A stretch of 50,736 nucleotides of DNA from an uncultured Alphaproteobacteria bacterium (GTDB lineage: Bacteria > Pseudomonadota > Alphaproteobacteria > CAAHEQ01 > UBA3637), in the NCBI GenBank assembly GCA_944392145.1, contig CALXVS010000010.1, forward strand, positions 1-50,736. The letters are read 5' to 3'. The translations under genes and the position numbers were made by a program. The notes beneath the pieces were generated by a model. That model made no database searches, was not told where the DNA came from, and saw only the letters and a list, made by a program, of their open reading frames with translations. Of the stretch, positions 6,282 to 44,843 are shown piece by piece; position 1 is the first letter of the stretch; each line of letters opens with the position of its first letter.

Positions 6282-6356
6282 GGGTGTGTAGCTCAGCGGG
6301 AGAGCATTACCTTCACACGGTAGGGGCCGCAGGTTCAATCCCTGCCACACCCACCA
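6282..6356 (+). tRNA. tRNA-Val (anticodon CAC), prophage integration site
   Basis: A complete cloverleaf is visible: acceptor GGGTGTG/CACACCC, D arm GCTC/GAGC, anticodon loop TTCACAC with anticodon CAC, T arm GCAGG-TTCAATC-CCTGC, discriminator A and an encoded CCA (6354-6356). The phage recombined inside the anticodon-to-T-arm segment, so the 3' part and its terminator at this end are phage-supplied and restore a functional gene. Confidence 0.95.
6309..6336 (+). other. attL core
   Basis: 28 bp from ACCTTCACACGG to GCAGGTTC are identical to 44816-44843. The core covers the anticodon stem-loop through the start of the T loop, the usual target region for tyrosine integrases. Confidence 0.9.
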
Positions 6357-7706: not shown

Positions 7707-7735
7707 TTGACATTCCCTAAAAAAGACTGTATAGT
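7707..7735 (+). promoter_or_regulatory. Promoter of antirepressor leader 1
   Basis: TTGACA (7707-7712), 17 bp, TATAGT (7730-7735). It fires against the late operon. The expected RNA start is near 7742, over 200 nt before the coding start. Confidence 0.8.
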
Positions 7736-7741
7736 GTTTCG

Positions 7742-7947
7742 TAGAGGTTAAGAACTCTAATGCTACCGGTTAGCGCACTCGTTAGGGCGTTATTTTTATG
7801 TCATATGTGACCTCCCAGTCATTATGATAAAAGTTTATGCCAAGAGTGCGGTGAATATATTGAATAAACCCACGTGTGTAGTATCACGTTCTTAAACTCT
7901 TGGCACCTTACTATTTAAGGTAACTTTTTAAGAAGAGGATACTACCT
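7742..7947 (+). ncRNA. Structured 5' leader RNA 1 (c4-like, antirepressor control)
   Basis: This ~205-nt leader is non-coding. Hairpin 1 (stem GTAG 7741-7744 with CTAC 7763-7766) exposes TTAAGAAC (7748-7755). GTTCTTAA (7888-7895) can pair either with that loop or, extended as TTCTTAAA, with TTTAAGAA (7927-7934) next to the ribosome site. GTAGTATC (7878-7885) also pairs with GATACTAC (7938-7945), closing the site. TGCCAAGAG (7838-7846) pairs with CTCTTGGCA (7897-7905). The layout matches the co-transcribed c4 antisense RNA of P1/P7. Confidence 0.65.
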
Positions 7948-8751
7948 ATGACAAATTTAATCAAAATCACCGAGATTGAACAAGAACCGCGCATCCAAGA
8001 TATTGTTTTGGGGCGTGCTTTGGGATTAGCACGTGCACGAAAAATAAAAGATGTTATTGATGCAAATATGGCAGAATTATTGACTTATGGTCGTGCGCCC
8101 TTGATAAGGGCGGACGTGAAAATCGGCTGTGCAACCCGTAAGACAGAATCCTATTATTTAAACGAACCGCAAGCATTACTTATTTGTATGTTTTCACGGA
8201 CAGATAAAGCGGCGGAAGTAAGGAAAGAGGTCATACAGGCCTACATGGCATTAAAACACCCTCAAAACGACCTTGGCCTTGTCCCGGTCTCCTCCTACAC
8301 CCGACGTCTTCCCTCCGGACCGCGGGAAATCAAGTTATCCGAAAAAGCCCGGTCTGAAATCGGCGGGATTGTCAAGGCGTGCATCGGTTCGGCCTTAAAA
8401 GACATCACCGTGACACAAACGGTTGACCCCATTGGATACAATATCCCCGAATCGTTAAAGCAACCCGACGTCGTGCCGGCCGAGGTGGAAAAGGAGCTGT
8501 GGCGCCTGACCGAACAGTTGCATTACGGACTTCAAAAGCAACAACCGAAAGCACAAAACACATCGGTGCTGAATTTGTTTTACCTATTGCGGGCACTTAA
8601 AACGGTTTTAACCCGGTATCGCACCGTGCAAAACGAAACGTTGTTTGCCGTGGACATGATGAAAGGGGATAAAAACTATGAAAAGGACGAGGCTTTAGAA
8701 CGCATATACATCCTAAACGCCATGACGAACGGCGCGTTACGGGTGTGCTGA
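7948..8751 (+). CDS. Antirepressor-type protein A with shared C-terminal domain
   Basis: A 267-aa protein. Residues 1-105 form an N-terminal module (DIVLGRALGLARARKIKDVI ... YYLNEPQALLICMFS ... EVRKEVIQAYMAL) typical of phage antirepressor/anti-immunity proteins that are neither BRO nor Rha. Residues 106-267 are a domain shared with three other proteins here (19276, 39671, 42518), starting LGLVPVSSYTRR and ending TNGALRVC. It is transcribed against the late operon, next to the spanins. Such proteins usually counter the CI repressor or act on the host; the target is unknown. An RNA leader controls it. Confidence 0.75.
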   Translation: MTNLIKITEIEQEPRIQDIVLGRALGLARARKIKDVIDANMAELLTYGRAPLIRADVKIGCATRKTESYYLNEPQALLICMFSRTDKAAEVRKEVIQAYMALKHPQNDLGLVPVSSYTRRLPSGPREIKLSEKARSEIGGIVKACIGSALKDITVTQTVDPIGYNIPESLKQPDVVPAEVEKELWRLTEQLHYGLQKQQPKAQNTSVLNLFYLLRALKTVLTRYRTVQNETLFAVDMMKGDKNYEKDEALERIYILNAMTNGALRVC

Positions 8752-9193: not shown

Positions 9194-9634
9194 TTATACT
9201 AAACGTGTTTTGAAAAAGCGCTTCATGCTTTCATCTGAAATGACATCATCTTTTGTTTTATTATATGATTCAATCCATGGACTTTCAGCATGCGTCATAT
9301 CCCGCAATCTCCAAGCAGAATATTGTCCAAATTCAGCATAAATATCATCTAAAAACGACCTTATTTCACAAGGAATAGAATCAATCTTAAATCCAGGTTC
9401 AGGCATTAAACACGCTGAGCCGTTTACCTTAAATTTATGATATAACAACGGAACAACCGGACCATGTTGCCATGCCTGTAACGTTTCATCAAACAACCGC
9501 TTTCCATGCATTGCCAAATAAAAACCCTGAGCATAATAACATAATTTTTGAAGCTTCAAATTTGAAATACAATCTTCAGCTTCATGATCAACCAATGTTA
9601 AAAAATAATTGGCGACATCCATAGCCGTTACCAT
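9194..9634 (-). CDS. Panacea-domain (DUF4065/SocA-like) antitoxin
   Basis: A 146-aa protein with the Panacea signature: DVANYFLTL near the start, ISNLKLQKLCYYAQGFYLA, and AWQHGPVVPLLYHKF. Panacea proteins act as versatile antitoxins paired with varied toxins, and some are proteolytic adaptors such as Caulobacter SocA. The ATG at 9634 is preferred over the longer frame from 9727 because AAGGAG precedes it and the frame upstream covers its promoter. With 8788-9192 it forms a cargo unit with its own promoter between lysozyme and spanins. Confidence 0.85.
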   Translation of the reverse strand: MVTAMDVANYFLTLVDHEAEDCISNLKLQKLCYYAQGFYLAMHGKRLFDETLQAWQHGPVVPLLYHKFKVNGSACLMPEPGFKIDSIPCEIRSFLDDIYAEFGQYSAWRLRDMTHAESPWIESYNKTKDDVISDESMKRFFKTRLV

Positions 9635-9682
9635 ACTTGTTTTCTCCTTTTTTTGAAAGCCAAAAGATTTCGGCTTTCCTAT

Positions 9683-9711
9683 AGGATAAAACCAATTCAC
9701 GATTCTGTCAA
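9683..9711 (-). promoter_or_regulatory. Promoter of the Panacea toxin-antitoxin unit
   Basis: On the minus strand TTGACA (9711-9706), 17 bp, TATCCT (9688-9683). A hairpin GAAAGCC/GGCTTTC lies between promoter and ATG. Confidence 0.6.
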
Positions 9712-9712
9712 T

Positions 9713-9753
9713 AAAAAAACGCATCATCCTTTCCTTTCGCGTCCTGATGCGTT
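9713..9753 (-). terminator. Terminator between lysozyme and the Panacea unit
   Basis: Minus strand AACGCATCA (9753-9745) pairs with TGATGCGTT (9726-9718), then a T run (9717-9713). It isolates the Panacea unit from late transcription. Confidence 0.75.
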
Positions 9754-19275: not shown

Positions 19276-20427
19276 TCAGCACACCCGTAACGCGCCGTTT
19301 GTCAGGGCGTTTAAGATGTATATGCGTTCTAAAGCCTCGTCCTTTTCATAGTTTTTATCCCCTTTCATCATGTCAACGGCAAACAACGTTTCGTTTTGCA
19401 CGGTGCGATACCGGGTTAAAACCGTTTTAAGTGCCCGCAATAGGTAAAACAAATTCAGCACCGATGTGTTTTGTGCTTTCGGTTGTTGCTTTTGAAGTCC
19501 GTAATGCAACTGTTCGGTCAGGCGCCACAGCTCCTTTTCCACCTCGGCCGGCACGACGTCGGGTTGCTTTAACGATTCGGGGATATTGTATCCAATGGGG
19601 TCAACCGTTTGTGTCACGGTGATGTCTTTTAAGGCCGAACCGATGCACGCCTTGACAATCCCGCCGATTTCAGACCGGGCTTTTTCGGACAACTTGATTT
19701 CCCGCGGTCCGGAGGGAAGACGTCGGGTGTATGAGGATACCGGAACGAGGCCAAGCTCTTGTTGCGCCGGGGAGACATAGGCGCCGGTCTTGCGGATACT
19801 TGGTAGGACTTCCGAATAGACCCAGTCAGCAAAGGCTTGCGCTTGCGGTTTGTTAGAACGGAATATCAGGCGGTAGAGATTGGGTTCGTTGATGATTGTA
19901 ATTTGCTGCATTACAGAAAAGAACATAATTTCTTGGTTTATGCTAACCATACACCCCTTCGGTGGGTTAGTGGCTCTTGTCACATACACCCACAAGTTTT
20001 CTATATCACAACGATTTTTCCCATATTTTTTAAATTCTTCTTCACGTTGTTTCTTCCACCTTTTTTCCCGTTCTTCTTGCTCTTTCTTTTCCTCCAAGTA
20101 TTTTTTGTGATTTTCTTTGATTTGTTCACTTAGTTCATTGCGACAGGATTCTATTCGTCTATATCCTTCTTTAAGATGAGTTTTATAAATGAACTTTTGG
20201 AAATCATTATAAGAGGATTCAACTTCCTTTAATTTTTTTTCTGTTTTATTCAAGTATGCCATTTTTTCTGATTTCTCTAAAGAAATTTCTTGTTCATCAT
20301 GGCAATCATCATAAAAATACGAATAATTACTCCGACTGCCAACCAATTGCTCAATTGCATCATTCCTTAGATCAGAACACGCACACAAAGTTCCCAAAAT
20401 AATAAAACACGAAACTTGCTTTAACAT
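19276..20427 (-). CDS. Chimeric moron: lipoprotein/coiled coil fused to a truncated BRO module and the shared C-terminal domain
   Basis: A 383-aa frame in three parts. Residues 1-17 are a lipoprotein signal (FIILGTLCAC, lipobox TLCAC). Residues 18-~150 are a charged coiled coil (EEKKEQEEREKRWKKQREEE). From ~175 (ITIINEPNLYRLIFRS) comes the second half of a BRO-N domain without its first ~60 residues, then the shared C-terminal domain. The antirepressor part could not reach DNA if the protein is exported. It is either a recombination relic or a new envelope protein. It has its own promoter and is bracketed by hairpins in the tail operon. Confidence 0.65.
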   Translation of the reverse strand: MLKQVSCFIILGTLCACSDLRNDAIEQLVGSRSNYSYFYDDCHDEQEISLEKSEKMAYLNKTEKKLKEVESSYNDFQKFIYKTHLKEGYRRIESCRNELSEQIKENHKKYLEEKKEQEEREKRWKKQREEEFKKYGKNRCDIENLWVYVTRATNPPKGCMVSINQEIMFFSVMQQITIINEPNLYRLIFRSNKPQAQAFADWVYSEVLPSIRKTGAYVSPAQQELGLVPVSSYTRRLPSGPREIKLSEKARSEIGGIVKACIGSALKDITVTQTVDPIGYNIPESLKQPDVVPAEVEKELWRLTEQLHYGLQKQQPKAQNTSVLNLFYLLRALKTVLTRYRTVQNETLFAVDMMKGDKNYEKDEALERIYILNALTNGALRVC

Positions 20428-36013: not shown

Positions 36014-36077
36014 TTTTTACAATTTTTAAAAATATATAACAACATTTTTTTTCTTTACTTAATTGTCTTTTTACAAT
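36014..36077. promoter_or_regulatory. Candidate repressor operators between Cro-like and CI genes
   Basis: TTTTTACAAT is present at 36014-36023 and 36068-36077, the second overlapping the CI -10 box. The reverse form ATTGTAAAAA and a near copy AATGTAAAAA occur at 38894-38916 in front of another early promoter. Confidence 0.45.
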
Positions 36078-36082
36078 ATAAT
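36054..36082 (+). promoter_or_regulatory. CI repressor promoter
   Basis: TTTACT (36054-36059), 17 bp, TATAAT (36077-36082), with AAAGGAGG just before the ATG at 36102. Confidence 0.65.
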
Positions 36083-36101
36083 ATCAAAAAAAGGAGGTTT
36101 C

Positions 36102-36752
36102 ATGACAACACCTGACGATATAAGACAACACGTAAATAACCTTTTGCTTCAAAAGGGAATCAGTCTTAATTCTGCCTCTTTAATGGTGGGAAAAGACCAA
36201 ACTTATCTGTTTCAATATGTTCACAGAAAAACGCCCAAGCGATTAAAAGAAGATGTGCGTCAAAAACTGGCAGAAATCTTAAATGTTTCAGAACAAGAAC
36301 TGACCGACTTAACATTAAACGAGAAACCGATCGGACCCCTTGTCAAAATAGATGTTTTAGATGCGGTTGCTTGTTGCGGTAACGGTATTGAAAATTTTTC
36401 GGAAAACGTGATTGGACAACACATGATGACGCTTCCGGCTTTACGCGAATTTACGTCATCCGCCCCGGAAAACATAAAAATTATCAAAGCAATCGGCGAT
36501 TCAATGATCCCAACCATCAATTCGGGGGACTTGGTCTGGATTGATGTATCCGAAAAAACGCCCTCCAGTGACGGATTATATTTGCTGTGCATTGGGCGCG
36601 ATCTGATGATTAAACGTATACAAATCAATCCGTTTAATAACTCCGCTACTGTCAAGTCTGACAACCCGCGTTACGCCGTTTTTGAAAAAGAAAACTTTGC
36701 CGACATTCAAGTCATGGGAAAAGTCATTTACCACATCCAACGGGTGGGGTGA
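36102..36752 (+). CDS. CI-type phage repressor with LexA-like S24 peptidase domain
   Basis: A 216-aa repressor. Residues ~8-65 are the DNA-binding helix-turn-helix domain (LLQKGISLNSASLMVGKDQT). Residues ~85-216 are a LexA-like autoprotease: likely cleavage at Cys-Gly in AVACCGNG, catalytic Ser in GDSMIPTINSGD near residue 133 and Lys in LMIKRI near 170. It should keep the prophage silent and self-cleave on RecA activation. It heads an operon with the next HTH gene. Confidence 0.9.
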   Translation: MTTPDDIRQHVNNLLLQKGISLNSASLMVGKDQTYLFQYVHRKTPKRLKEDVRQKLAEILNVSEQELTDLTLNEKPIGPLVKIDVLDAVACCGNGIENFSENVIGQHMMTLPALREFTSSAPENIKIIKAIGDSMIPTINSGDLVWIDVSEKTPSSDGLYLLCIGRDLMIKRIQINPFNNSATVKSDNPRYAVFEKENFADIQVMGKVIYHIQRVG

Positions 36753-37147: not shown

Positions 37148-37169
37148 ATGATTGTTTAAAGGAGATCAT

Positions 37170-37709
37170 ATGTATTCTGCCGACAAAGTTTTGCAAATAA
37201 TCACTTATCTGTTATCGCTTAATAACGGACGAATGGATTTATTGAAGCTGATGAAAGAACTTTATTTAATTGACCGCAGATCAATTGAAGAACGCGATTC
37301 TTCCCTATCCGGCGATGTATTTTGCAGTATGCCTCATGGTCCGGTTTTAAGCCAAACACTCAACATGTTGACAATGCTCCCTGATTATCCGTCTTGGTTT
37401 GAGTATTTAGATTCATCCCGAAAAATGTATTATCCTGACATTGTTTTAAAAAAACAACTCCCGGAGCTGGACCGCCTAAGCGAAAAAGATAAATCCTACA
37501 TTCGTGAAATTTCTGATAAATTTAAAGATTATACCGAATTTCAGATAGAGGATTACACGCATAAACTGCCCGAATGGGTGGATCCCAACGGCAGCAGCCG
37601 CAAAATCCGCTTTCAAGATGTCATGCGCGCTCTTCAAAAAAGTGATACGGAAATCTTGGCCGCAAAAAAAGAATATGATGCCTTAAACGAGCTATGTCAT
37701 GCGGGTTAA
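37170..37709 (+). CDS. Panacea-domain-type antitoxin, second copy
   Basis: A 179-aa protein with a Panacea pattern: ADKVLQIITYLLSLNNGRMD, LLKLMKELYLIDRRSIEERD and FCSMPHGPVLSQTLNML (the M-x-HGPV motif), followed by a helical C-terminal extension (KDYTEFQIEDYTHKLPEW). It heads a two-gene unit with its own promoter just behind the repressor genes, so it can be expressed in the lysogen. AAAGGAG precedes the ATG. Confidence 0.8.
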   Translation: MYSADKVLQIITYLLSLNNGRMDLLKLMKELYLIDRRSIEERDSSLSGDVFCSMPHGPVLSQTLNMLTMLPDYPSWFEYLDSSRKMYYPDIVLKKQLPELDRLSEKDKSYIREISDKFKDYTEFQIEDYTHKLPEWVDPNGSSRKIRFQDVMRALQKSDTEILAAKKEYDALNELCHAG

Positions 37710-38156: not shown

Positions 38157-38456
38157 TTATTTTCTAACGACACTTGCTGTTAATTTAACACCAAAGTGCC
38201 GCATCACATTCATGACTGTCCCCAATTCCGGATTCCCATTACCGGAAAGTGATTTATAAAGGCTTGTTCGGCTCATACCCGTTTCTTTAGCCAATCGGCT
38301 CATCCCTTTGGCTTTAGCAATATCCCCTATCGCTGCCGCCAATAAGGCCGGATCATTTTCTTCCAACACAGCCGACAAATATTCAGCTATATCATACTCA
38401 TCTTTCAAAAATTCGGAGGCATCAAATTCCGAAACAACAATCTTCTTTTTTGTCAT
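38157..38456 (-). CDS. HigA-type (HI1420-like) antitoxin
   Basis: A 99-aa addiction-module antidote protein. The N-terminal arm (FDASEFLKDEYDIAEYLSAV) and the helix-turn-helix MSRLAKETGMSRTSLYKSLS match the HI1420-type antitoxin family, which bind the toxin and the operon promoter. It is encoded one base after the toxin, the HigBA order. GAGGTG precedes the ATG. Confidence 0.9.
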   Translation of the reverse strand: MTKKKIVVSEFDASEFLKDEYDIAEYLSAVLEENDPALLAAAIGDIAKAKGMSRLAKETGMSRTSLYKSLSGNGNPELGTVMNVMRHFGVKLTASVVRK

Positions 38457-38457
38457 A

Positions 38458-38748
38458 TCACACCTCTTCTTTCATTTTTCTTGCTCTTTTAATGTCTTTT
38501 GCCTGTGTTGACTTATTTCCGCCGCATAATAATAAAATCCAAGTCACACCTTTTTTCATAAAATACAACCGATATCCGGGTCCGTAAAAAATTCTTATTT
38601 CATAAAGGCCTGCCTCTATTGCTTTAAAATCACCCCAGTTACCTAAAGTAATCCGCCTGATTCGGGCAATAATAACGGCACGCGCCTTATCATCGTCCAA
38701 ATCCGCCAACCATTCGGCAAAAACACTTGTCTGTTGCACTCTTATCAT
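38458..38748 (-). CDS. HigB/Gp49-like toxin (RelE superfamily)
   Basis: A 96-aa toxin. FAEWLADLDDDKARAVIIAR, EAGLYEIRIFYGPGYRLYF and LLLCGGNKSTQAKDIKRAR are the hallmark of phage-derived Gp49-like RelE-fold toxins that cut ribosome-bound mRNA. The promoter at 38756-38784 places the RNA start at or one base before the ATG, so the transcript is probably leaderless. Confidence 0.9.
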   Translation of the reverse strand: MIRVQQTSVFAEWLADLDDDKARAVIIARIRRITLGNWGDFKAIEAGLYEIRIFYGPGYRLYFMKKGVTWILLLCGGNKSTQAKDIKRARKMKEEV

Positions 38749-39445: not shown

Positions 39446-39475
39446 TTGACAATAAGCACCAAATGTGATTATAAT
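39446..39475 (+). promoter_or_regulatory. Promoter of antirepressor leader 2
   Basis: TTGACA (39446-39451), 18 bp, TATAAT (39470-39475). Confidence 0.8.
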
Positions 39476-39481
39476 GGGGGT

Positions 39482-39670
39482 AAGGCTAAACACCTTATTA
39501 CAAGCGGACTGTCCGCCCCGAAAGATTTGCGGTTATTTTTGTATCCGATGAATGTCGGGGGTGCAGAGAATAAAAGAGGATTCGTCCGAATAATCTCGCT
39601 CGTCTTGTATCGAGTGTTTAGCCCCCGGCGCCTGACCGGTTCAGGCCTTCTAAACAAAGGATACAAGAAA
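39482..39670 (+). ncRNA. Structured 5' leader RNA 2 (c4-like)
   Basis: Hairpin 1 (TAAGG 39481-39485 with CCTTA 39493-39497) exposes CTAAACA. GTGTTTAGCC (39614-39623) is the exact complement of GGCTAAACAC (39484-39493) and can also pair with CTAAACA (39650-39656) beside the ribosome site. TCTTGTATC (39603-39611) and TTGTATCC (39539-39546) each match the ribosome-site sequence GGATACAAGA (39659-39668). The roles match those in leaders 1 and 3. Confidence 0.65.
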
Positions 39671-40480
39671 ATGCAAGAATTAGTCAGCATTATCAATAAT
39701 CAAATAAAAACAACATCAAATATCATTGCGTCAACATTTGGCAAAGCGCATAAGGATGTTTTGCGCCGTATTGAATCGTTGGAAATCCCTGATGATTGGC
39801 ATCAGCGCAATTTTACGCCCATGCTTAAAACCGTTGATATTGGCGGCGGAGCAACTCGCCACGACAAAGCTTATGAAATCACCCGTGACGGATTTACGTT
39901 GCTTGCCATGGGCTTCACCGGCAAAAAGGCAATGGAATTTAAAATCAAATACATTGATGCCTTTAATAAAATGGAAGCGGCTTTAAAGGGACAAAACGAC
40001 CTTGGCCTTGTTCCCGTGTCCTCTTACACGCGCCGACTCCCGTCCGGCCCACGGGAAATTAAGTTGTCCGACAAAGCCCGCTCCGAAATCGGCGGGATTG
40101 TCAAGGCATGCATCGGTTCGGCCTTAAAAGACATCACCGTAACACAAACGGTTGACCCCATCGGATACAACATCCCCGAATCGTTAAAGCAACCCGATGT
40201 CGTGCCGGCCGAGGTGGAAAAGGAGCTGTGGCGCTTGACCGAACAGTTGCATTACGGACTTCAAAAGCAACAACCGAAAGCGCAAAACACATCGGTGTTG
40301 AATTTGTTTTACCTGCTCCGGGCACTTAAAACGGTTTTAACCCGGTATCGCACCGTGCAAAACGAAACCTTGTTTGCTGTTGACATGATGAAAGGGGATA
40401 AAAACTATGAGAAGGACGAGGCTTTAGAACGTATATACATCTTAAACGCCCTGACAAACGGCGCGTTACGGGTGTGCTGA
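39671..40480 (+). CDS. Rha-family regulator B with shared C-terminal domain
   Basis: A 269-aa protein. Residues 1-~108 are a Rha domain (TTSNIIASTFGKAHKDVLRR, AYEITRDGFTLLAMGFTGKK, AMEFKIKYIDAFNKME), found in phage regulators that interfere with lysogeny. From ~110 it carries the shared C-terminal domain, almost identical at DNA level to that of the BRO protein at 42518. It is preceded by a long RNA leader, with ribosome site AAAGGA. The hairpin CCGGACTGAACATCCGG follows the stop. Confidence 0.85.
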   Translation: MQELVSIINNQIKTTSNIIASTFGKAHKDVLRRIESLEIPDDWHQRNFTPMLKTVDIGGGATRHDKAYEITRDGFTLLAMGFTGKKAMEFKIKYIDAFNKMEAALKGQNDLGLVPVSSYTRRLPSGPREIKLSDKARSEIGGIVKACIGSALKDITVTQTVDPIGYNIPESLKQPDVVPAEVEKELWRLTEQLHYGLQKQQPKAQNTSVLNLFYLLRALKTVLTRYRTVQNETLFAVDMMKGDKNYEKDEALERIYILNALTNGALRVC

Positions 40481-41710: not shown

Positions 41711-42342
41711 TTATTCACACAATGCCGCAGCGCAGCCCGGAATGGTATGCCGTTCGGTTTGGGAAAATCACCGGCTCAACCTTTTATCAATTCATGGGAA
41801 CGGGCAAAACGGTTGAAGACCGCATTTTTGAAAAAGCGGCCGAACATTTAACGCATCAAGCCGCGGTTGACAGTTTTGAATCAATAGACACGGAACGGGG
41901 CAAAACCCTGGAAGATGAGGCCGCCTTTTTATATTCGGTTATGACAGGGCGTGACGTTAAGCAGGTCGGCTTTATTGAGTATAATGCTTATGCGGGATGT
42001 TCTCCAGACGGCCTTGTCGCCGATGACGGCATGATTGAAACCAAATGCCCCCGGCAAGCCGGCCATTTAAAAACCGTTATCAACGGCTTTATCAAACCGG
42101 AATATCGTTGGCAAATGCAATACAACTTGTTCATCGCAGACCGGAAATGGTGCGACTTTGTGAGTTACTGCAAGCCGTTCGGCAAGCCTCACATCATTCG
42201 GGTGGACCGCGATCCGGCATGCTCGGCCCGTATTGCCGAAAAACTGGAAGAATTAAGCGGCCGGATTCAAGAAATTATCAACATGTATAACGAAAGGAGA
42301 AAAAAACTTGTTGACAACATCAAATCATGTATGGTATATTGA
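41707..42342 (+). CDS. YqaJ/lambda-Exo-type alkaline exonuclease
   Basis: A 211-aa 5'-3' exonuclease. QRSPEWYAVRFGKITGS is the entry motif, GCSPDGLVADDGMIETKCP carries the catalytic Asp and Glu-x-Lys, and WQMQYNLFIADRKWCDFVSY is the conserved end of the core. With Rad52 it forms a two-gene recombination system. Its last ~11 codons contain the promoter for leader 3. Confidence 0.95.
   Translation: MIIHTMPQRSPEWYAVRFGKITGSTFYQFMGTGKTVEDRIFEKAAEHLTHQAAVDSFESIDTERGKTLEDEAAFLYSVMTGRDVKQVGFIEYNAYAGCSPDGLVADDGMIETKCPRQAGHLKTVINGFIKPEYRWQMQYNLFIADRKWCDFVSYCKPFGKPHIIRVDRDPACSARIAEKLEELSGRIQEIINMYNERRKKLVDNIKSCMVY
42311..42340 (+). promoter_or_regulatory. Promoter of antirepressor leader 3
   Basis: TTGACA (42311-42316), 18 bp, TATATT (42335-42340), embedded in the 3' end of the exonuclease gene. 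Confidence 0.8.
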
Positions 42343-42346
42343 AGTC

Positions 42347-42517
42347 CTAAACATCAACGGCGGTATTCGCCCCTGTCAGTCTGGCGACTTTTTTATGCCC
42401 AGTTTATGGGGGATGAGAACCGAAAATATATTGAATATCGGTCAGCGTCCGTTGACGTTTAGTGAGTCCCCCACCTCTCATTGTAAAAGGTGGCTTCTAA
42501 AAATCAACGGAGTTACC
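42347..42517 (+). ncRNA. Structured 5' leader RNA 3 (c4-like)
   Basis: The clearest of the three. CTAAACATCAACGG (42347-42360) near the RNA start and CTAAAAATCAACGG (42497-42510) at the ribosome site differ by one base. CCGTTGACGTTTAG (42449-42462) pairs with the first in 13 of 14 positions and with the second in 12 of 14. GGGGG (42408-42412) and CCCCC (42468-42472) can also pair. The leader thus holds a mimic of its own translation start region. Confidence 0.7.
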
Positions 42518-43339
42518 ATGCATAAAGCATTAACTATATTTAATTATCAAAACAATCAAATCCGCACCAAGTTAATTAACAACGAACCTTATTTTTGTGG
42601 TTTGGATGTTTGCAAAATCTTGGGCATTAAAAACAACCGAGATACTATTACCAGATTACACGATGGCGTCGTTATTGCCGACACCACCGATTCTTTAGGC
42701 AGGCAACAAAGCGTTTCGTATATTAACGAGCCAAATCTTTATAAAGTAGCCTTTCAATCGCGTAAACCAACGGCTGAACCATTTGTCAATTGGGTATGCA
42801 AAGAAGTCCTACCAAGTATCCGCAAGACGGGAGCCTATGTCACACCGGCGCAACAGGAGCTGGGCCTTGTTCCGGTGTCTTCTTACACCCGCCGTCTCCC
42901 CTCCGGCCCGAGAGAAATAAAACTCTCCGACAAAGCCCGGTCGGAAATCGGCGGGATTGTCAAGGCGTGCATCGGTTCGGCCTTAAAAGACATCACCGTA
43001 ACACAAACGGTTGACCCCATCGGATACAACATCCCCGAATCGTTAAAGCAACCCGATGTCGTGCCGGCCGAGGTGGAAAAGGAGCTGTGGCGCTTGACCG
43101 AACAGTTGCATTACGGACTTCAAAAGCAACAACCGAAAGCGCAAAACACATCGGTGTTGAATTTGTTTTACCTGCTCCGGGCACTTAAAACGGTTTTAAC
43201 CCGGTATCGCACCGTGCAAAACGAAACCTTGTTTGCTGTTGACATGATGAAAGGGGATAAAAACTATGAGAAGGACGAGGCTTTAGAACGTATATACATC
43301 TTAAACGCCCTGACAAACGGCGCGTTACGGGTGTGCTGA
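42518..43339 (+). CDS. BRO-family antirepressor C with shared C-terminal domain
   Basis: A 273-aa protein. Residues 1-~110 are a full BRO-N domain (IRTKLINNEPYFCGLDVCKI, LGIKNNRDTITRL, SYINEPNLYKVAFQSRKPTA, FVNWVCKEVLPSIRKTGAY). From ~115 it has the shared C-terminal domain. The second half of its BRO domain resembles the truncated copy at 19276-20427. Likely a DNA-binding antirepressor; the RNA leader controls translation. ACGGAG is the ribosome site. Confidence 0.85.
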   Translation: MHKALTIFNYQNNQIRTKLINNEPYFCGLDVCKILGIKNNRDTITRLHDGVVIADTTDSLGRQQSVSYINEPNLYKVAFQSRKPTAEPFVNWVCKEVLPSIRKTGAYVTPAQQELGLVPVSSYTRRLPSGPREIKLSDKARSEIGGIVKACIGSALKDITVTQTVDPIGYNIPESLKQPDVVPAEVEKELWRLTEQLHYGLQKQQPKAQNTSVLNLFYLLRALKTVLTRYRTVQNETLFAVDMMKGDKNYEKDEALERIYILNALTNGALRVC

Positions 43340-43538: not shown

Positions 43539-43858
43539 CTGACTTTTTAATCACATTGTCTGAGATTGCACAGACATTACGATATGAAGGGGATAAGGCC
43601 GAATTACACGCCCGCAAATGGCTTTATAAACACGGCCTAAAACAATTTGCCACAGGTAAGTATGTAAGGAAGCAAGTAGAAAATATATTGGAAGCAAAGG
43701 GTAAAAAATGCTACATTACAGACAGCGCGGTAAAACATGGCACGTCCGAGGCAGTATTCGCGTGGGAAAACGCACCATCAAAATCCCCGAAAGATCTACT
43801 GGGTTTATTAAACTTAAAGATGCAAGAGAGTATGGAAGCAAACTTGAAACGGATATAA
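43535..43858 (+). CDS. Excisionase-like protein
   Basis: A 107-aa frame. The first ~58 residues (FLITLSEIAQTLRYEGDKAE, KWLYKHGLKQFATGKYVRKQ) look like a winged-helix excisionase that directs integrase toward excision. The remaining part overlaps the start of the integrase gene by 150 bases in another frame and is not obviously conserved. AGGAGGAG precedes the ATG. Confidence 0.65.
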   Translation: MTDFLITLSEIAQTLRYEGDKAELHARKWLYKHGLKQFATGKYVRKQVENILEAKGKKCYITDSAVKHGTSEAVFAWENAPSKSPKDLLGLLNLKMQESMEANLKRI

Positions 43859-44736
43859 GAGAAAACACCCTCTATCCTGAACAGGATAAAAGCCAAAAGA
43901 CAACCTTTGACGATTGTCTGTGCATACACCTGAATAAAAAAAGATTAAAACCTGCTGAAATCCAAAAGATAAAAATCCTTTTACCGAACTTTCAAGGTGT
44001 GTGTGTATCCGAAATAAAGGATGCATGGAATAGATTTTTGGCTAAAAAAAAGCACCTTGCACCAGCTACAATCAACCGTTATGCAAACACAATTAAAAGT
44101 ATAATTAAGAGTGGCGGTGAAGAAATAAACATAAAAGCCCCCCAAATTCAACATTTATCTGTCAAAAATCAGGTGGTTTTCCTTTTACCGGAGCAGATCA
44201 GACCCCTTTTAATCGGTTGTTATTCGGTTCACGCAAAGCCTATCTTTACCGTTTATGCCTATCAAGGATTACGCGAACAAGAAAATTTACAGTTGAAATG
44301 GGAGGATGTAGATTTAAAACGAGCTGTTCTGTTTATCCGAACATCTAAAAACGGGGAGTCGCGACAAATCCCTATGCACAAAAATGTGTGGTGGATTTTG
44401 ACAAGACACTGGATAAGATCGGGAAAACCCATCACCGGGAATGTGTGGCTGAATAGTAAGGGGCAACCCTACAAAGACACCCGGCACACGGGATGTGGCG
44501 GCAGCCCCGTCAGAAAAGCGCACACGCTTGCGCTTAAAAGATTAAAAGAGCAGCACGGTATAGAAATCAAAATGCGTGTCCACGACTGGCGACACGATTG
44601 GGCGTCCCGCATGGTTATGGCTGGCGTAGATTTATTGACCGTTCAAAAGCTAGGTGGGTGGAAATCGCTTGATATGGTTAAACGTTACGCCACATTTTCT
44701 GCGCGCCACGAGATTGATGCTATCAATAAAATTTAA
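43708..44736 (+). CDS. int: Tyrosine-type phage integrase
   Basis: A 342-aa recombinase. The N-terminal arm-binding region begins LHYRQRGKTWHVRGSIRVGK. Catalytic residues: Arg in AYQGLREQENLQLKW (about 186), the HDWRHDWAS box (His and Arg, about 291-294) and Tyr in MVKRYATFS (about 328). It integrates the phage into tRNA-Val, next to attR. AAGGG precedes the ATG. Confidence 0.95.
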   Translation: MLHYRQRGKTWHVRGSIRVGKRTIKIPERSTGFIKLKDAREYGSKLETDIRENTLYPEQDKSQKTTFDDCLCIHLNKKRLKPAEIQKIKILLPNFQGVCVSEIKDAWNRFLAKKKHLAPATINRYANTIKSIIKSGGEEINIKAPQIQHLSVKNQVVFLLPEQIRPLLIGCYSVHAKPIFTVYAYQGLREQENLQLKWEDVDLKRAVLFIRTSKNGESRQIPMHKNVWWILTRHWIRSGKPITGNVWLNSKGQPYKDTRHTGCGGSPVRKAHTLALKRLKEQHGIEIKMRVHDWRHDWASRMVMAGVDLLTVQKLGGWKSLDMVKRYATFSARHEIDAINKI

Positions 44737-44815: not shown

Positions 44816-44843
44816 ACCTTCACACGGTAGGGGCCGCAGGTTC
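44816..44843 (+). other. attR core
   Basis: 28 bp identical to attL 6309-6336, ending at GGTTC of the tRNA T arm. The remaining tRNA 3' end is not adjacent; it follows after 113 bp. Confidence 0.9.

Follow-up and report, generated by a model that had tools for sequence, protein, structure and literature searches.

Probable C4-like antisense-RNA leaders of antirepressor-type genes in an alphaproteobacterial prophage and their apparent relationship with sRNA-Xcc1

Sequence comparison and RNA folding across a window of 50,736 nucleotides (the whole stretch of DNA that was analysed) from an uncultured alphaproteobacterium indicate that one leader in it, leader 1, is very probably a C4-type antisense-RNA immunity leader for the antirepressor gene located directly 3' of it (gene 1). 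The C4 mechanism has been known since phage P1, and these divergent alphaproteobacterial leaders are not recognised by Rfam. P1-type RNA immunity switches may occur in alphaproteobacterial prophages in Rfam-unrecognised forms, up to three per prophage and with separate codes. The features of leader 1 and gene 1 are listed below.

7707 to 7735, forward strand: near-perfect sigma-70-type promoter, TTGACA-17-TATAGT (11/12 consensus match)
7748 to 7755, forward strand: a1, the 5' copy of target a, TTAAGAAC, exact complement of the J3/1 region
7758 to 7797, forward strand: terminator-like hairpin (7758-7792) plus TTTTT, -7.3 kcal/mol
7760 to 7766, forward strand: b1, the 5' copy of target b, ATGCTAC, with one G-U pair to the P3 loop
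7838 to 7907, forward strand: C4-like antisense RNA core with a three-way junction fold
7878 to 7885, forward strand: b', the P3 loop GTAGTATC, anti-Shine-Dalgarno side, assigned by complementarity
7888 to 7896, forward strand: a', the J3/1 region GTTCTTAAA, assigned by complementarity
7927 to 7934, forward strand: a2, TTTAAGAA, target immediately 5' of the Shine-Dalgarno sequence, assigned by complementarity
7934 to 7939, forward strand: Shine-Dalgarno sequence AGAGGA
7938 to 7945, forward strand: b2, GATACTAC, overlapping the Shine-Dalgarno sequence and extending to -3, assigned by complementarity
7948 to 8751, forward strand: gene 1, antirepressor-like, 267 aa, with a weak Rha/BRO-N domain and a shared C-terminal domain

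Leader 1 (209 nt, 7742-7950) begins directly 3' of the promoter. A sequence-only reading had proposed that a nested stem encloses AAGAGGA and that the sequestering strand has an alternative 5' partner, and both pairings were recovered: AAGAGGA lies at 7933-7939, GTAGTATC (7878-7885) pairs with GATACTAC (7938-7945), TTCTTAAA (7889-7896) pairs with TTTAAGAA (7927-7934), TTAAGAAC (7748-7755) is opposite GTTCTTAA (7888-7895), and TGCCAAGAG (7838-7846) is opposite CTCTTGGCA (7897-7905). The minimum free energy (MFE) of the leader 1 RNA is -62.7 kcal/mol, whereas shuffled sequences average -43.5 (z -4.6; equalled by none of 200 shuffles), and its MFE fold contains the hairpin at the ribosome-binding site (RBS) with the ribosome site closed. 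Pairing of the antisense segment with the RBS reaches -19.8 versus a shuffle mean of -8.7 (z -4.8, p ~0.001), and pairing with the 5' copy reaches -17.5 with modest significance (p 0.037).

What had to be revised is the nature of the sequestering strand, which is more than one side of a cis hairpin for which a 5' segment competes: it consists of the P3 loop and the J3/1 strand of a C4-type junction. On its own, the core at 7838-7907 forms a three-way junction (-20.9 kcal/mol, z -3.1) composed of stems P1 (7838-7847/7896-7905, its 5' strand being TGCCAAGAG), P2 (7850-7852/7868-7870, weak, just 3 bp), and P3 (7872-7876/7885-7889), with a CACC tail at 7904-7907. The 8-nt P3 loop and the J3/1 strand are left free, and both are complementary to the RBS (b2 and a2) as well as to the 5' copy (b1 and a1). 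An equivalent junction is present in two further leaders of the same prophage (leaders 2 and 3), in a relative from another family of the same class (genome G047), in Thalassospira and Niveispirillum, and in phage P1. Segment 7838-7907 is most likely the antisense RNA itself, the sequestering strand being part of a compact RNA.

An alternative explanation would be a plain cis RBS hairpin with a 5' anti-hairpin, in which the leader toggles between two folds and no separate antisense RNA exists. This agrees with the RBS hairpin being the MFE state of full-length leader 1, where the cis RBS hairpin (-69.9) lies below the 5' pairing (-59.4) and the junction (-57.1), and with the folding of growing prefixes, in which a1 initially pairs with a' and is displaced in favour of the RBS hairpin once the RBS emerges. 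Since the RBS hairpin beats both other states in the full leader, cis sequestration alone could suffice. However, such a toggle leaves unexplained why most of the compared leaders from phage P1, gamma-phages, and Alphaproteobacteria carry a junction with a closing stem of 9-10 bp and a CACC/CGCC tail, and why homologous leaders match C4 and sRNA-Xcc1; we consider it unlikely and favour the C4-type reading.

The sequence-only reading had also placed the same scheme in two other leaders, and these were confirmed 5' of ATG 39671 (Rha, leader 2) and ATG 42518 (BRO, leader 3), with the layout of leader 1 (promoter, a1/b1, junction, a2/b2) and other sequences.

39446 to 39475, forward strand: leader 2 promoter, TTGACA-18-TATAAT (12/12)
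39484 to 39504, forward strand: leader 2 a1, GGCTAAACAC, and b1, TACAAG, assigned by complementarity
39554 to 39637, forward strand: leader 2 C4-like core, from its fold and a sub-threshold sRNA-Xcc1 match
39650 to 39668, forward strand: leader 2 a2, CTAAACA, and b2, GATACAAGA, at the RBS, assigned by complementarity
39671 to 40480, forward strand: Rha-type antirepressor/regulator (PF09669, 4.8e-26) with the shared C-terminal domain
42311 to 42340, forward strand: leader 3 promoter, TTGACA-18-TATATT (11/12)
42347 to 42360, forward strand: leader 3 a1, CTAAAC, and b1, TCAACGG, assigned by complementarity
42405 to 42475, forward strand: leader 3 C4-like core, from its fold
42497 to 42511, forward strand: leader 3 a2, CTAAA, and b2, TCAACGGA, at the RBS, assigned by complementarity
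42518 to 43339, forward strand: BRO-N antirepressor (PF02498, 1.7e-19) with the shared C-terminal domain

The antisense segments of leaders 1-3 pair with their own RBS at -19.8, -20.0, and -20.3, versus a non-cognate mean of -8.3 among the three; every cognate pair ranks first, and the permutation p of 0.17 reflects that three leaders are too few. The hairpin and TTTTT of leader 1 lie between a1/b1 and the core, overlapping b1, and occur at the equivalent position in several homologous leaders. The search that found them detected none in leaders 2 and 3, and a strict terminator scan found no terminator on the forward strand in any of the three leaders.

At the Rfam gathering cut-off, only tRNA-Val was detected in the whole window and no riboswitch; neither C4 (RF01695) in any of the three prophage leaders nor isrK anywhere in the window was matched. 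Leader 2 gave a sub-threshold match to sRNA-Xcc1 (RF02221; 48.8 bits against a cut-off of 53, E 6e-7) with the same consensus structure in the alignment, leaders 1 and 3 matched neither C4 nor sRNA-Xcc1, and permissive cmscan of leader 1 returned chance matches only. Because all three cores fail the Rfam score, they are classed as a divergent form with a presumed C4-like mode of action. The likeness to P1/P7 C4 (RF01695, with a1/b1 as RF03163) concerns the order of promoter, a1/b1, hairpin with U-run (in leader 1), junction, a2/b2, and antirepressor operon. In phage P1 immI (AF234172), the GenBank annotation runs promoter, a1, b1, c4, a2, b2, icd, and ant, and Rfam finds c4-a1b1, isrK-like, and C4. 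As in leader 1, the P3 loop of C4 pairs with the Shine-Dalgarno side (b2) and J3/1 with the upstream target (a2). In both systems TTTAT/ATTAT stands before stem P1 and CACC after it; in leader 1, TTTAT and CACC provide the sequence context for a possible RNase P cut at the 5' end of P1. Leader 1 shares with C4 a three-way junction with free P3 loop and J3/1 (its P2 being weak), a'/b' strands that complement a2/b2 at the RBS of the gene that follows, and an a1/b1 5' copy on one predicted transcript (b1 requiring one G-U pair); that the controlled gene is an antirepressor is read from its position and domain assignment alone. The prophage cores differ from C4 in scoring below its model, in lacking the small tetraloop hairpin that C4 has in P2, in an a2-b2 gap of 3 nt versus ~20 nt, in having the Rha/BRO gene itself as presumed target whereas it is an icd-like upstream ORF in phage P1, and in the presence of three private copies of the module, unlike P1/P7. 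The sRNA-Xcc1 family has the same fold and provides the closest model for leader 2, but leaders 1 and 3 remain unmatched by it.

Homologous loci showed that the pairing codes change while complementarity is kept. Genome G047 encodes three homologs of the gene 1 domain (40-47% identity), all three with their own leader of this design and changed codes (b2 being CACAAG, CACGAG, or CTGAGG, each matched by its loop and 5' copy), and the module is also present in MW202613, a phage from Manatee Spring. When the gene 1 protein was the sole query, viral contigs returned no matches, and scans with a five-protein alignment yielded 35 more loci (33 with readable leaders). The module was found in 11 of these 33; the other 22, including Brucella-type loci, showed no such core, and it is therefore not obligatory for the gene 1 family. 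Bona fide Rfam C4 (59.8-73.5 bits) occurs at three Thalassospira loci (L128, L131, and L133) and one IMG/VR locus (L117), and bona fide sRNA-Xcc1 (55.1 bits) in Niveispirillum (L138), so that C4 and sRNA-Xcc1 share the slot before one antirepressor family. Five gamma-phage loci (L141-L145), found via sRNA-Xcc1 similarity alone, contain unannotated bona fide sRNA-Xcc1 (71-86 bits) directly 5' of genes of roughly antirepressor type: Aaphi23, Rac-SA53, and Pmp3 have ant as the next gene, Acinetobacter phage 4316 has a KilA-N protein gene, and in Moraxella phage Mcat15 the next gene encodes an unnamed protein whose size is similar. The shared slot and the five gamma-phages point to sRNA-Xcc1 being, as it appears from sequence, a C4-type RNA. 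It has been described as an integron-borne, virulence-linked sRNA and not as an antirepressor antisense RNA (PMC2996969, PMC12444791). It is shown in no Rfam clan, and we found no link between sRNA-Xcc1 and C4 or antirepressors in the literature searched, although papers outside that search may contain it.

A table of 24 leaders from Alphaproteobacteria, gamma-phages, and phage P1 was examined by pairing matrices and not by a covariance model, since MAFFT aligned the cores unreliably. Nearly all four slots are exact complements of 4-11 nt, and b1/b'/b2 and a1/a'/a2 co-change. Cognate pairs exceeded non-cognate pairs with a permutation p of 5e-5 for both the RBS and the 5' side, and with p 0.015 (RBS) and 0.008 (5') in the five gamma-phage leaders alone; p-values of a 19-leader set are not fully blind because some of its alphaproteobacterial cores were picked by eye. 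These data bear on two further explanations. Control of gene 1 by a ligand riboswitch or an RNA thermometer would fit the alternative folds that surround the RBS, but the pairing sequences differ per leader with complementarity kept and Rfam shows no riboswitch, which makes it highly improbable. We give equally little credence to the repeats being DNA-level operators, recombination sites, or chance: inverted and direct repeats are indeed present in the DNA, yet their positions follow the RBS and promoter in every leader, the three sites co-change, and p is ~0.001 by shuffling and 5e-5 by permutation. Co-change of the three sites led us to reject the riboswitch, thermometer, and DNA-site readings.

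By analogy with known systems, the following mechanism may be proposed for the C4-type leader 1. The strong promoter would produce a single transcript carrying the a1/b1 copy, the 70-nt junction RNA, and the RBS of the Rha/BRO-like gene. In P1/P7, RNase P excises the C4 RNA, which blocks translation (PMC5320573), and in the lysogen the junction RNA could be cut out in the same way. This RNA, or the uncut strand in cis, would cover the ribosome site and keep the antirepressor off, and the CI-like S24 repressor (gene at 36063-36752), on which the antirepressor presumably acts, would hold. We infer that repression occurs in trans by the 70-nt RNA; uncut mRNA would also be off, because the closed RBS is thermodynamically preferred and a1 pairs with a' earlier. 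The 5' a1/b1 RNA, perhaps ending early at the hairpin and TTTTT, might take up the antisense strands and thereby open the RBS. A precedent is IsrK of the orf45-anrP system in Salmonella Gifsy-1, a short 5' RNA with a terminator and read-through into a folded-off downstream mRNA, which it can open and switch on (PMC4825925). The 5' partner of leader 1 may accordingly be compared with the a1/b1 sites of phage P1 by layout and with IsrK by function. As the three modules have different codes, each antirepressor would be controlled separately.

The N-terminus of the gene 1 product matches PF09669 (1.2e-3), PF02498 (4e-3), and phrog_5060 'anti-repressor Ant' (1.6e-4), and PF09669 was found in all five gene 1 homologs. 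The DNA of the C-terminal domain is 92-98% identical in four prophage genes (8263-8751, 19276-19764, 39992-40480, and 42851-43339), whose leaders and N-terminal halves differ. This pattern suggests that domains were swapped or converted between genes while each leader stayed with its N-terminus. No match to the shared domain was found outside the source genome among 113 relatives. The fourth copy, in the gene at 19276-20427 (reverse strand) inside the late operon, is joined to the second half of BRO-N as well as to a lipoprotein-like N-terminus that is unrelated, and no C4-like leader was seen there.

Two direct copies of 28 nt from the 3' half of tRNA-Val mark attL (6309-6336) and attR (44816-44843). 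The att sites bound a prophage of ~38.5 kb with an integrase (43708-44736) and myovirus-type baseplate genes. The spacing of 30 kb that the sequence-only reading had placed between leader 1 and the other two is an artefact of integration, as attL and attR flank the integrated prophage: once the phage DNA is circular, leader 1 would lie ~7 kb from leader 2 and closer to leader 3, all on one strand, and the three leaders would form one early-region group. A Gp49/HigB-like toxin and HI1420-type antidote pair (38157-38748, reverse strand) adjoins the early region, and two SocA/Panacea-domain genes are located at 9194-9727 and 37152-37709.

RF02221-like RNAs also occur in chromosomes. Sub-threshold matches (E 0.01 or better) were present in 30 of the 57 relatives searched from the source family and in none of 14 controls, with up to 12 per genome. 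These RNAs (L029-L088, genomes G000-G053) are cassette-like, often several per genome. By eye, most precede small lipoprotein-like genes or SGRSMVEMLGV pilin-like genes and each has its own terminator-like hairpin. Among 48 distinct chromosomal RNAs, the RBS of the own next gene was more complementary than those of others (p 0.0002), and the first coding bases gave no such signal (p 0.25); compared with the phage leaders, the RBS complementarity is weaker, and it comes mainly from J3/1. It is more probable than not that the whole sRNA-Xcc1 family is a C4-type branch silencing the next gene, which has left phages for chromosomal cassettes and there guards, copy by copy, the RBS of its own cargo gene, and that several antirepressors of a single prophage, sharing a C-terminal domain, have private RNA codes, with leader, RBS, and N-terminal domain moving as one cassette. 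The leader comparison offers a testable function for sRNA-Xcc1, which sits 5' of antirepressor-type genes whose ribosome sites it complements. Should the chromosomal copies act alike, one bacterial family would have up to a dozen such RNAs per genome before lipoprotein- or pilin-like genes. In one of these genomes (L075; G020:C14, positions 9584 and 9911), two RF02221-like cores lie in tandem ~330 bases apart.
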